DNA of 64,000 nt, from positions 62,001 through 126,000 of the forward strand of contig NZ_CADIJO010000014.1 in assembly GCF_902859705.1 (NCBI RefSeq). The letters are read 5' to 3'. This DNA is from Achromobacter deleyi (GTDB lineage Bacteria; Pseudomonadota; Gammaproteobacteria; Burkholderiales; Burkholderiaceae_B). A model generated the notes under the pieces. It saw nothing but the letters and a program-made list of their open reading frames with translations. It was not told the origin of the DNA and ran no database searches. This document shows, one piece after another, positions 52,896 to 55,876 of the stretch (positions within the stretch are counted from its first letter, which is position 1; every line of letters begins with the position of its first letter). The position numbers and the translations under genes are program-made.

Positions 52896-53810
52896 ATGCA
52901 AGCGATTACCCCCGAACTCCTGGTGCTGGTGGACGCAATCGCCCGCCACGGCAGTTTCGCGAAGGCGGCGCGCGAGCTGGGCAAGGTGCCGTCGGCAGTG
53001 ACCTATTCGATCCGCAAACTGGAAGACGGGCTGGACGTCCTGCTGTTCGACCGCTCGGGCCACCGGGCGCTGCTGACGCCGGCCGGCGAAACGCTGCTGA
53101 AGGACGGCCGCCACGTGCTCCAATCGCTGGACGATCTGGCCTGCCGGGTCAAACGTATCGCAACCGGTTGGGAAGTGGAACTGCGCATCGCAGTCAGCGC
53201 GGTGCTGCCCTGGCGCCCGCTGTACGACCTGATCGAGGAATTCCAGGCGCTGGAAACGGCGACGACGCTGCGCTTTTCAACAGAAGTGCTGAGCGGCAAC
53301 TGGGACGCACTGACGTCAGGCCGCGCAGACCTGGTGATCGGGGCCGGCGCGGCGGGCGAACCGACCGGCCCGTACCGATCCCAAGCAATGGGCCAGGCCC
53401 AGTTCGCGTTCTGCGTGGCGGCGCACCACCCGCTGGCATCCGCCCCACAACCGCTGAGCCGCGCGGACATCACACGCTATTGCGCGGTAGTCGTAGCCGA
53501 CACGTCACGCAATCTCCCGCCGCAGTCGCGCGGCATCCTGGCGGAACAACCGACGCTGGTGATGCCGACGATGCAGGCAAAGATCGAAGCGCAGATCCGC
53601 GGGCTGGGATGCGGGTATCTGCCCCTGACGCTGGCGGCGCCTTACCTGTCGCAAGGGGTGCTGGTGGTGTGCGAAACGGACGAAGGCATGTCGCTGACGG
53701 AACACGTGGCGTATGCATGGCGGGCCGAGGCGCCTGGGGAGGCGTTGAAGTGGTGGCTGCAGAAGATGAAGTCGCCGCGGTTGTGTGAGGGGTTGTTGGG
53801 GCTTGCTTGA
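52896..53810 (+). CDS. LysR-type transcriptional regulator
   Basis: This is a 304-residue LysR regulator with the HTH in SFAKAARELGKVPSAVTYSIRKL. The effector domain follows, with LRIAVSAVLPWRPLYDLIEE. The start at 52896 (MQAITPELLV) follows CGGAG; an upstream in-frame ATG at 52848 would add 16 residues that overlap the operator-like dyad. It is divergent from two pirin genes, its likely targets. Past its stop lies repeat copy B. Confidence 0.9.
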   Translation: MQAITPELLVLVDAIARHGSFAKAARELGKVPSAVTYSIRKLEDGLDVLLFDRSGHRALLTPAGETLLKDGRHVLQSLDDLACRVKRIATGWEVELRIAVSAVLPWRPLYDLIEEFQALETATTLRFSTEVLSGNWDALTSGRADLVIGAGAAGEPTGPYRSQAMGQAQFAFCVAAHHPLASAPQPLSRADITRYCAVVVADTSRNLPPQSRGILAEQPTLVMPTMQAKIEAQIRGLGCGYLPLTLAAPYLSQGVLVVCETDEGMSLTEHVAYAWRAEAPGEALKWWLQKMKSPRLCEGLLGLA

Positions 53811-53847
53811 GATTTGTTTGCCTGCGTGAGGGTGTGCTTCTTGGGCC

Positions 53848-54021
53848 GCTCGGGGCGCAGGGCATGTGTGGGGCGGGCGCCCACGATTGCGGTCCGGAGC
53901 CTTCGCTCCGGACTTACCTAGGCGGCCCCCCCCTTCGTCATCTTCGTCCGCCTTCGGCTCCCTTCAGATTCCCTCGGGCGCATCGAGGTTGCCCGCCCCA
54001 CACATGCCCTGCGCCCCGAGC
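53848..54021 (-). repeat. Palindromic repeat element, copy B (inverted orientation)
   Basis: This is the same core as copies A and C, read on the minus strand at 53879-53990 (112 bp). It carries a local insertion of about 14 bp (including a G-run and GGCCGCCTAGG) before the TCCGGAGC hairpin. The core is closed by a perfect inverted repeat of 31 bp, 53848-53878 with 53991-54021, whose sequence is unrelated to the stems of A and C. Copy B lies after the stop of a rightward gene. It could fold into a long cruciform or, as RNA, a long stem with a structured loop. Confidence 0.9.
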
Positions 54022-54366
54022 TACATATCGGCGGTTTGAGGCGCTGCTGCGGTGGCCTAATGCGGCGAGACTTGCGGGGCCCGTCAGTTGGGGCCGCGCG
54101 GGCGGCCCCGCCTAACTTACGCGGTGGTTGGGCGTCGTCACGATGACGCTGCGCGCTGGCCAAGAAAAGCGCTCTTGCCAGTGGTGGTGGCGAGCAAACG
54201 CCGCGACTCGTCTTTCTCTCTTCTCCACAAGCGCGCAGCGTCCCTGCCACACTTTCCAACGCCGCAATGCCAAACGTGGCCGCCCGCGCGGCCGCGGCTT
54301 GGCGGCCCTGCAGATTTCATGCCCTGACCACGGGTCGAGCGGCGCGACAAACCAAGACGCACGTAG
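54022..54366. other. Noncoding spacer between repeat copies B and C
   Basis: These 345 bp have no ORF of family resemblance. They contain a small GC palindrome (GGGGCCGC/GCGGCCCC) near 54087-54108. The two flanking repeats are in opposite orientation, so the segment is bracketed by inverted repeats. I see no transposase remnant, tRNA or promoter. Confidence 0.5.
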
Positions 54367-54524
54367 CCCCTGGCGGTGGTGGCTTGCTGAGTGGGCAACC
54401 TCGATGCGCCCGAGGGAATCTGAAGGGAGCCGAAGGCGGACGAAGATGACGACGGGGCAGTCCGGAGCGAAGGCTCCGGACCGCAATCGTGGGCGCCCAC
54501 TCAGCAAGCCACCACCGCCAGGGG
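54367..54524 (+). repeat. Palindromic repeat element, copy C
   Basis: The core at 54397-54494 (98 bp) is nearly identical to copy B's core without its insertion and shares the same landmarks as copy A. It is closed by a perfect 30-bp inverted repeat, 54367-54396 with 54495-54524, whose sequence differs from those of A and B. Just outside the right arm, CGACCTACGAAGA also follows copy A (about 152-164). Just outside the left arm, GTAGC also flanks copy B in the same relative orientation. The element lies past the 3' end of the leftward YeeE-type gene. Confidence 0.9.
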
Positions 54525-54574
54525 CGACCTACGAAGAGATAACGCCACGATTCACGATGACCCGCGACAAACCA

Positions 54575-55876
54575 TCACCGACTAGGCCGCAACTTCAACG
54601 CCACCCAGATGCCCGCCAAGCACGCCACACCGAAGATCCAACCTGACAACGCACCCGCCATCACCCCCGACAGCAATGTCCCGACCGTGCACCCCAATGC
54701 TGTCATCCCGCCCCACCCCATCAAGACGCCACCAGTAAAGTTACGCGCCACCTCCCGCCAGCCTGGCAGTTTTGGCCGGAATGCGCCTGCTGCCAAAGCC
54801 GCTGCCCAGGCGCCGATCACCAATCCTAGAACGAATGTGCCGTTGTTCGAGAGTAGTGCTTGCTTGACCGCGGTCGCGCAGCCCGCGAACGTGTCCAGGC
54901 CTTCCAGGCGGGATGGCAGCCAGCCCGCGCTGGAGGCCGCCGTGCGGGCCATGCTGCCCAGCTCGGCCGTCACGCCCAACGGGGCGATGCGCAGGTAGGC
55001 GATCACGCCGATGAAGGCCACCAGCACGCCGCCGATGGCAGGCGACCAGCGGTCTTCCAGCACGGTGCGCCAGAGTGGCACGGTGCCGCTTTGGGGCAAG
55101 GCCACATTGCCGGATTGGGCGTTCCCCGACAGCGACACGGAGTCGTTAGACGTCGGTGGAATCCGTGCCGTCGTCCCCAGCCCTGCGCGGCCGAGCCTGC
55201 TCAGCGTCAACGCCAACAGTGCCAGCGCCGCGCATTGCAACAGCGCCGTGCCGCCGTATCCCAGATGGCGGGGCAGCCAGATGACCGGCGCTTCCTGGAT
55301 CATCGCCAGGTACAGCGTGTTCCAGGTGGCGAAACCCAGCATGAAGCCCACGGCTGCGCCCAGCAGCGCGAATGGTGATGCCAGTGCGCCCTCGCCCAGG
55401 CGATAGAAATGGGCGCTGATGCATGAGCCCGAGATTCGCATGCCGATGCCAAATGTGAAGGCGCCGGCGACCAGCGCCAGGCTGATCGGACCGATGTGAG
55501 CGCCGGGCGGTAGACGCTCGGGGCCAGGCACCGGCAGGAACGCGCCGAATACGGCGTGGTAGCCCAGCGTGCCGACCGCCAGCGCGATCAGTACCGCGTA
55601 GGCGCCGCGCGGGTCGCGGCGTTCGATGGCGTCGCGGGCGATGCAGTAAAAGCAGAAGCGCGAGCGTTGCAGGACGATGCCGAACGCTGCGCCCAGCAGC
55701 AGCGACAACGACAGGTTGCGGCCGCCATCGGGCAGCGGTGCGAGCTGCCAGGCGGCGAGAAACACCGCCGCCAACAGCGTGGCGGCGGCCGTGTAGCGCA
55801 GGGCCGCATGGGCCGACGGCACGGCATCATGCTGCGCCGCCGTCCCCGGCGGCGCGGAGTATCCCGGAACGCTCAC
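54575..55876 (-). CDS. YeeE/YedE family sulfur-compound transporter
   Basis: This is a 433-residue inner membrane protein with two repeats of the YeeE/YedE fold (PF04143). The conserved cysteines lie in LQRSRFCFYCIARDAI, RISGSCIS, FAGCATAVKQALLSNNGTF and MTALGCTVGTLLSGV. Characterised relatives import thiosulfate. A polar linker (around residues 245-280) separates the halves. A GTG at 55876, 2 bp before the sulfurtransferase stop, is taken as start; no ATG precedes the first membrane span. Coupling to a periplasmic rhodanese suggests uptake of a sulfane-sulfur compound. Confidence 0.85.
   Translation of the reverse strand: MSVPGYSAPPGTAAQHDAVPSAHAALRYTAAATLLAAVFLAAWQLAPLPDGGRNLSLSLLLGAAFGIVLQRSRFCFYCIARDAIERRDPRGAYAVLIALAVGTLGYHAVFGAFLPVPGPERLPPGAHIGPISLALVAGAFTFGIGMRISGSCISAHFYRLGEGALASPFALLGAAVGFMLGFATWNTLYLAMIQEAPVIWLPRHLGYGGTALLQCAALALLALTLSRLGRAGLGTTARIPPTSNDSVSLSGNAQSGNVALPQSGTVPLWRTVLEDRWSPAIGGVLVAFIGVIAYLRIAPLGVTAELGSMARTAASSAGWLPSRLEGLDTFAGCATAVKQALLSNNGTFVLGLVIGAWAAALAAGAFRPKLPGWREVARNFTGGVLMGWGGMTALGCTVGTLLSGVMAGALSGWIFGVACLAGIWVALKLRPSR

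Follow-up and report, generated by a model that had tools for sequence, protein, structure and literature searches.

Within the window, the 64,000-nucleotide stretch of Achromobacter deleyi DNA that was analyzed, two hairpin-forming repeats (units B and C) form an inverted dimer flanked by a LysR-type gene (52896-53810) and a sulphur-transporter gene, and a third copy, unit A, is truncated by the window edge (Table 1). The first-pass annotation had described B and C as sharing a common core, closed in each copy by matched arms, and both units are indeed perfect 31-bp inverted repeats around that core. Unit A has its foot and outer left arm upstream of the window; once this DNA is added (from L197), A has 33-bp arms with one G·T pair. 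The core of unit C folds as a three-way junction, and the predicted folding energy of the unit is -125.7 kcal/mol, compared with -71.0 kcal/mol for shuffled sequences (z -12.2). The core of unit B, like some other cores, contains an extra insertion of the GGGGGCCGCCTAGG type (approximately 53914-53933) before the P5 hairpin, a variant module present in several species. Each of the three units is followed on its 3' side by a C-rich, G-poor tract. The tract of unit C enters the 3' end of the sulphur-transporter gene on the opposite strand, that of unit B enters the 3' end of the LysR-type gene, and that of unit A enters a minus-strand gene for an ABC-transporter ATPase. A search of the window against Rfam 15 gave no match at the gathering threshold; at E values up to 10, only miRNA models appeared, far under their gathering scores.

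Table 1. Coordinates of units A, B, and C and of the tracts 3' of them (position 1 is the first nucleotide of the window).
Feature	Position	Strand	Remarks
Unit A, truncated by the window edge	1-156	plus	Contains the core, the right arm (ends at 145), and the tail (146-156)
C-rich tract 3' of unit A	161-410	plus	C 94, G 44 per 250; rut-like window
Mirror tract 3' of unit B	53591-53840	minus	C 106, G 53 per 250 (minus strand); rut-like window
Unit B, outer tail GCCCAAGAAG (minus-strand reading)	53837-53846	minus	
Unit B, main hairpin H2	53848-54021	minus	Perfect 31-bp arms 53848-53878 and 53991-54021, core between
Unit B, foot GTAG	54021-54024	minus	
Unit B, accessory hairpin H1, short form	54090-54109	minus	Read by eye
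Unit C, accessory hairpin H1, loop region GGCCGCCCGCGCGGCC	54269-54303	plus	From the sequence
Unit C, foot GTAG	54363-54366	plus	Final base is the first base of the arm
Unit C, main hairpin H2	54366-54525	plus	Perfect 31-bp arms 54366-54396 and 54495-54525 around the core
Unit C, outer tail GACCTACGAAG	54526-54536	plus	3' boundary
C-rich, G-poor tract 3' of unit C	54537-54786	plus	C 107, G 48 per 250; rut-like window

These units belong to a family of hairpins (H2) of about 170 nt, and the genome that contains the window has at least 40 of them (the best 40 of 95 first-look candidates in a core search). A typical unit consists, in order, of the accessory hairpin H1, a linker, and H2, which is composed of a foot (often GTAG), an arm, the core, the complementary arm', and a tail. 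H1, with its GGCCGCCCGCGCGGCC loop region, is represented by 192 distinct sequences upstream of 280 units; its position, given for 14 units, is 108 to 142 nt before the core. The 280 distinct complete units were taken from 345 sequences in a census that left out units interrupted by contig ends, insertions, or adapters; 17 matches had no right-hand anchor, some of them being chance matches in coding DNA, and the search patterns would overlook strongly diverged copies. A stem is present in 274 of the 280, with a median length of 30 columns after trimming, and is perfect in 85 of the 274. In 157 of 187 units, the best partner of the left arm is the unit's own right arm. Together with the z value of unit C, these counts indicate that the matched arms are not the work of chance, and the outcome that was to have overturned the annotation, a majority of copies without matched arms, did not occur. 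The short marks outside the arms, proposed to define an outer boundary, are real, but they are not universal. The foot is GTAG in 107 of the 280 units, GAGC in 91, GCAG in 47, and GAGT in 13, with none in 22, while the tail is CCTACGAAG in 110; most of the remaining tails end in AGAA or AGAAC, and none was found in 25 units. Just 3' of the units at L012 and L003, the tail GACCTACGAAG is present in tandem, slightly altered, as if tails accumulate. Units of genus g29 (L357 and L358, in genome G111) have a longer apical hairpin and give 159-nt matches.

An alignment of 34 diverse units yields a three-way junction of 35 pairs. Changes on both sides are seen at 15 of these pairs, 96.8% of the cells are paired versus 85.2% after shuffling, and the covariation score is 0.257 versus 0.069; on each of five measures, none of 500 shuffles matched the observed value, although the test used related sequences and the very alignment from which the structure had been obtained. 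Of the 136 cores that could be parsed (of 168 distinct cores), 132 have GAA, GCA, GTA, or GGA as their apical loop. A GNA apical loop is a motif that is stable in DNA hairpins, and the fold data may be compatible with RNA and with single-strand DNA alike.

The non-Watson-Crick pairs reveal which strand folds. The 193 clean, non-redundant Achromobacter stems (of 219), clean meaning no gap and no more than 4 non-Watson-Crick columns, contain 121 G·T versus 19 A·C columns; G·A columns number 65, versus 7 for C·T. Divided by junction type, the ratios of G·T to A·C are 39:12, 33:4, and 49:3. For Bordetella-type units, the cleaned count is 14 G·T versus 2 A·C (23 of 32 non-redundant units); it becomes 16 versus 9 when more-mismatched stems are admitted (25 units), and it was 21 versus 21 in a looser first count of all 32 units that included badly registered stems. 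The H1 stems have no strand bias (42 G·T, 52 A·C). Because G·T so greatly exceeds A·C in the H2 stems, one defined strand folds, and computation supports the strand that reads 5'-foot-arm-core-arm'-tail-3'. This inequality also eliminates symmetric double-strand repair as the source of pairing, and the earlier suggestion that the stem is under pairing selection is supported, with the strand now specified. The 146 linkers, which are unpaired in H2, differ on the unit strand from a self-made, unpolarised consensus by 67 G>A and 7 C>T; thus, a C>T bias of the unit strand is not seen. Watson-Crick pairs in the stems, read 5' to 3', are also asymmetric, with 3024 G-C, 1460 C-G, 630 T-A, and 228 A-T, and an asymmetry in the same direction is reported for RNA stems in the accessible part of one study (PMC8794818).

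How the arms remain matched is answered by comparing copies. Arms had been held to be locus-specific and to vary freely, a view that does not survive: the 42 distinct units of the window's own genome fall into 22 arm clusters, the largest of 9 units, and arm types are common to several loci within one species, forming subfamilies. The comparison was made for 14 loci against three relatives and then for 154 units of four genomes, in which 123 pairs of orthologous hairpins were found through the 3' flank. In 89 of these pairs, the two orthologues are less alike than either is with its best same-genome paralogue, and in 17 they are more alike than both, where the paralogue value leans upward since it is the best of many and pairs share genomes. 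Identity is often 95-100% between paralogues where it is 80-90% between orthologues, and at one insertion site relatives often carry a different hairpin or core. For the two closest species compared (G018 and G023), 20 orthologous pairs have flanks that are 92-99% identical. Six of these were set aside for a difference in register, five of them being 75-89% identical over the hairpin and the sixth (L308/L310) 97% identical, so merely a register problem. Among the 14 pairs comparable in one register, all 9 changed arm pairs are one-sided, and in-place two-sided arm changes number 0 of 9. Six of these 14 pairs have cores that differ at 8 to 14 places but arms that differ at no more than one pair, indicating that cores are exchanged without the arms as well. 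Between more distant genomes, two-sided changes are grouped in blocks, usually accompanied by changes in the core. We read this as an exchange of hairpins between copies, in which the matched arms travel along.

The first-pass annotation had instead proposed copying of one flank to the other. Such copying, whether by template switching at an imperfect palindrome or by hairpin-primed synthesis, would match the arms locus by locus. Over the whole set (123 nearest-neighbor comparisons), 323 of 429 changed arm pairs are two-sided; 219 of these are of the transversion type, which is impossible via G·T, and they are mildly clustered (55 adjacent doubles versus 34.9 expected), all as flank copying would have it, and such a mechanism is described for RNA genes in the available text of PMC8794818. 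However, the closest species have only one-sided changes, arm types are common to several loci, the tolerance of G·T far above A·C is not predicted by copying alone, and exchange between copies explains the two-sided blocks. We therefore regard flank copying as an improbable main process, and the two-sided changes, taken with the one-sided short-term ones, would fit the exchange of segments between old subfamilies. Template-switch correction may contribute over long times.

Units are also lost and interrupted. In G002 at locus A, and at L008, only H1, linker, and tail are left, and the gap at the lost hairpins lies between 5-base direct repeats (by eye). Among 30 orthologues of locus A, 7 have the core, 2 have remnants, and 21 have nothing. 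At L072 (~1441), L076 (~1675), and L149 (~767), the core is left at the same point, after ...ACGAG, into a common foreign sequence, and at L160, L135, and L148 it is left a few bases from that point into other foreign sequences; these look like insertion sequences that target the core. Cores or arms at six other loci (L050, L142, L164, L284, L260, and L234) continue directly into CTGTCTCTTATACACATCT or into its complement; we take this sequence to be the Nextera adapter, indicating that assemblies break inside these hairpins. At L018/L024 (G000:C7), copies in the same orientation are 1449 and 1487 nt apart, perhaps as a tandem array of a larger segment.

Placement of the units relative to genes was assessed with a codon-based gene caller, by which 89% of the window is coding; one match inside a called frame was left out. 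The 73 single sites comprise 43 between convergent genes, 15 between (-,-) genes, 11 between (+,+) genes, and 4 between divergent genes, and for the 45 dimers, the corresponding numbers are 28, 12, 5, and 0. Thus, 71 of all 118 sites are between convergent genes and 4 between divergent genes. The 3' end of a convergent single unit, computed with a fixed offset, lies a median of 47 nt from the facing gene. Units are positioned downstream of genes, either singly or as dimers with their 3' ends outward. In G002, 39 of the 41 matches listed (the best 40 of 53 candidates having been scored) make up 31 sites, all within the arc from 5.99 to 3.03 Mb; none of the matches listed falls in 3.03-5.99 Mb, and two partial matches near 0.40 Mb were dropped. 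A noisy third-codon skew suggests that this arc is the origin half of the chromosome, and with the origin placed by eye, the folded strand of single units appears to be in the lagging-strand sense in 17 of 23.

Dimers and an extragenic position 3' of genes are also features expected of a true REP family, one moved by a RAYT (single-strand tyrosine transposase) that acts on the GTAG foot. The foot is GTAG or GCAG in 154 of the 280 units, and the G·T pairs of the stems are like those described for REPs in the accessible part of PMC3733652. However, a Y1 transposase was found in 10 of the 43 genomes of the genus; G002, whose one contig of 7.0 Mb carries at least 39 units, has none, not even a first-look candidate. 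Moreover, the two Y1 copies of the window's own genome bear other terminal repeats, and the stem and core together are much larger than a REP. The linkage to RAYT was therefore rejected, and mobilization of this kind seems quite improbable. The two near-identical RAYT-like genes of L031/L032 (G000:C48) have GTCAGACTACGTTTT terminal repeats of their own, unrelated to the units. An autonomous element was likewise sought in G111, where three inverted pairs are separated by 2.5-3.6 kb. The two with listed frames hold a transposase that we take to be IS256-like and that looks like a later insertion, and the candidate was dropped; in the G111 dimers at L357 and L358, an IS256-like element splits the spacer. 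The transposase scan covered the Y1 family only, and the dimer spacers of seven loci were read by eye.

The DNA next to the units has a composition of its own. Over the first 50 nt past the tail, the unit strand contains A 0.34, C 0.39, G 0.16, and T 0.11, and by ~300 nt the composition returns to background. Within 300 nt, 101 of 104 units have more C than G, compared with 31 of 65 at 3 kb; for Bordetella-type units, this is the case in 38 of 43 within 200 nt and also in 11 of 15 at 700-900 nt. The tract is alike whether the next gene lies on the opposite strand (140 units) or on the same strand (33 units), and transcription of the next gene was thus rejected as the sole cause of the skew. 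The effect extends into coding sequence. In 94 genes that end within 450 nt of a core, G+T at third codon positions falls from 0.73 over the final 20 codons to 0.47 at codons 101-120 (0.50 at codons 121-140), while in 260 control genes it is flat (0.45-0.47). For convergent gene pairs, the third-codon value is 0.46-0.53 without a unit (16 pairs) and goes from 0.71 to 0.47 with a unit (38 pairs). Around 64 single units, the skew is present on both sides with one polarity and reaches 2-3 kb, 52 of the 64 still being C-leaning beyond 1 kb. The two sides of 20 dimers have opposite polarity. The far skew may reflect the orientation of insertion relative to replication.

The skew is usually higher in alleles with a unit than in orthologues that lack the hairpin. 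In 33 of 36 comparisons, and at 11 of 13 loci, a given 500-nt stretch of gene is more skewed where the hairpin is present, the comparisons being not independent and one pair being counted twice. The exceptions are L003 and L011, where on average the filled allele is not more skewed; the "empty" relative at L011 retains the partner unit. At L007, changes found only in the filled genome include 73 G>C versus 11 C>G and 32 G>A versus 16 C>T, while the empty sister lineage has 42 C>G and 10 G>C. At L013, the filled genome has 31 G>C and 8 C>G, and the sister has 12 G>C and 15 C>G. At L008 there is no bias (13 G>C, 11 C>G; sister, 26 G>C and 56 C>G).

A tract of this composition resembles the loading site of Rho, the rut window, which is described in the accessible parts of two accounts as C-rich, G-poor, and unstructured, about 78 nt long, with regularly spaced C (PMC9160355, PMC6407284). 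We scored a window as rut-like when C/G was >2 within 250 nt and a C recurred every 11-13 nt, a spacing rule that is our own rendering of the definition in the available text of PMC6407284, with the pause-site step omitted. By this measure, a rut-like window is present on the unit strand in 100 of 105 units and on the opposite strand in 2 of 105, compared to 8 of 67 controls at 3 kb and 0 of 34 stretches at unit-free convergent pairs; if the C/G cut-off is lowered to 1, controls also pass (61 of 67 and 29 of 34). The folding energy of 120 nt is -18.4 kcal/mol in the tract versus -46.5 kcal/mol at 3 kb. At 14 loci compared by allele, a rut-like window (C/G >2) is found in 27 of 28 filled alleles, 7 of 13 empty alleles, and 4 of 10 alleles that retain only the tail, with medians for the best C/G of 3.69, 2.19, and 2.00, respectively. 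Because 7 of the 13 "empty" alleles already have the window, part of the association may represent target choice or relics of lost copies. An intrinsic terminator, in which a T run follows the hairpin, was rejected from composition: the fraction of T beyond the tail is 0.07 over 20 nt (126 units) and 0.10-0.11 over 50 nt. The tract has the attributes of a candidate rut window, and the strand that carries it is presumed to be transcribed.

These observations lead us to a reading to which we give an even chance: the family would be a REP/BIME-like, non-coding extragenic repeat that acts as a hairpin-capped, Rho-type terminator. RNA that reads through a unit would enter the C-rich tract, where Rho would load and end transcription before antisense RNA could run far into the facing gene. 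Trimming back would then leave an mRNA capped by H2, and in a dimer each unit would stop the RNA that comes from the gene on the far side. The hairpins, whole or as the core alone, swap between copies in the genome, so that subfamilies spread and arms stay matched. This pattern of exchange is backed by computation, as are the fold, the strand, the placement, and the tract on the same strand. Trimming from the 3' end halts at stable hairpins, and BIMEs can attenuate transcription through Rho. Transcripts ended by Rho are trimmed from their 3' ends, according to the portion of the literature available. Against the Rho reading, the 5'-side skew of single units takes 2-3 kb to fade, a longer distance than a Rho site requires, and the tract is equally strong beside a gene on the same strand (33 units), where there is no facing gene to protect. 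More tentatively, and with less than even confidence, we propose that mobile or mobile-derived terminators remodel several hundred bp of their neighbors, third codon positions included, into C-rich, G-poor Rho-loading sequence on the unit strand while the hairpins swap between copies.

The main rival of the Rho-terminator reading is a strand-specific mutation halo, which we judge unlikely yet serious. Nicking, stalling, or recombination would be frequent at the hairpin and would expose the neighboring complementary strand again and again; deamination and repair errors would then enrich the unit strand in C and A, and the same process would exchange the hairpins, so that one cause would cover both exchange and halo. 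It would account for a skew that tracks the orientation of the unit regardless of the strand of the next gene, that is present on both sides of single units to 2-3 kb, and that has opposite signs across dimers, as well as for the changes found only in the filled genome at L007. However, the dominant change is G>C, whereas plain deamination predicts G>A, and L008 is unbiased. In addition, the units have no known linked nuclease or transposase, and the effect near the unit is concentrated on the 3' side, in the shape of a rut site.

Within the genus, the distribution of the family is broad. Of 61 genomes searched, 36 have the core, and every one of these belongs to the window's own genus, which is represented by 37 genomes; G003 is the genus member without it. 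At the nucleotide level, no core was found in 24 genomes from other families of the order. In an 18-mer scan of named genomes, with at least 105 matching stretches, 71 of 80 titled matches are from Achromobacter, and among the matches listed, the 9 other titled ones (for example, from Komagataeibacter and Planctomycetota) include no complete unit. A covariance model of H2 reaches further, with matches in 24 of 151 genomes of the bacterial family and in 11 of 43 genera, including its own. Genera g39 and g29 give strong matches (best E 2.8e-17 and 3.7e-13), and several other genera give weak ones (best E 3e-4 to 6e-4 in g30, g44, and g59); the sequences inspected were those from g39, g29, and g34 only. 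The genus of G201 has matches in 7 of 9 genomes, with 68 in G165, and outward dimers about 460-730 bp apart recur there. We infer that the structural matches include Bordetella petrii.

A purine-rich, conserved core with helices that covary across genera would also suit a conserved small RNA, or a ligand- or protein-binding RNA, that acts in trans, its placement at gene ends being secondary. A copy number that ranges from none to dozens, the loss of units and the hairpin-less remnants, and an orientation that is tied to neighboring genes are, however, what a cis element would present. The window also lacks an Rfam match at the gathering threshold, and a trans-acting RNA strikes us as very improbable.

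Whether the tract arises by selection for termination or by hairpin-started, strand-specific mutation, either would be new as a genome-wide force on neighboring coding sequence, with the orientation of a repeat family predicting the strand composition of its neighbors, even at third codon positions. Under selection, the tracts would mark portable Rho terminators that could be found from sequence alone; if the tract is mutational, the units would be natural markers of recurrent strand-specific DNA processing. The puzzle of the arms is answered by hairpin exchange plus pairing selection rather than by arm copying. In either case, a single RNA-seq experiment could address the reason for the accumulation of REP-like elements 3' of genes.

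Within the accessible part of the literature on Achromobacter repeats and on strand skew around repeats, many subscription papers lying outside the search, no description of the element or of its halo was found. The closest relatives in arrangement are the GTAG REPs and BIMEs (PMC3733652, PMC2817692). As far as the available text describes them, these are likewise extragenic, of high copy number, and located downstream of genes or between convergent genes, and they also form dimers of opposite orientation, with compensatory and G·T pairs in the stem and a GTAG foot, as in many of our units. However, a REP is a palindrome of 20-40 nt with a GT(A/G)G head, while H2 is about 170 nt, has a three-way-junction core, and is accompanied by an accessory hairpin, which places it outside that definition. 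The foot, moreover, is GTAG in only 107 of the 280 units, and unlike REPs and REPINs, the family has no linked RAYT that was found and has a C-rich tract tied to its orientation.

The Bor/Bor-1 repeats of Bordetella, recorded in surveys from 2006 and 2008, are intergenic stem-loop repeats whose size and place fit the family (PMC1590033, PMC2267715). In the accessible portions of these accounts, Bor-1 has a length of 117 bp in B. bronchiseptica, with 196(92) copies, and of 93 bp in B. pertussis, with 128(78) copies; the same portions mention no three-way fold, arm exchange, or flank skew. By this description, Bor/Bor-1 may be the same element.

With the template-switch hairpins of RNA genes, as the available text presents them (PMC8794818), our stems share two-sided, often clustered changes and an excess of G-C and T-A over C-G and A-T pairs. 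Unlike those hairpins, the short-term changes here are one-sided, and hairpins are exchanged between loci. Finally, the tracts are like the Rho-dependent terminators, as these are characterized in the accessible parts of PMC9160355 and PMC6407284, in being a C-rich, G-poor, unstructured window with spaced C. Unlike those terminators, the rut-like window predicted here follows a repeated hairpin and extends into the third codon positions of the neighboring gene.
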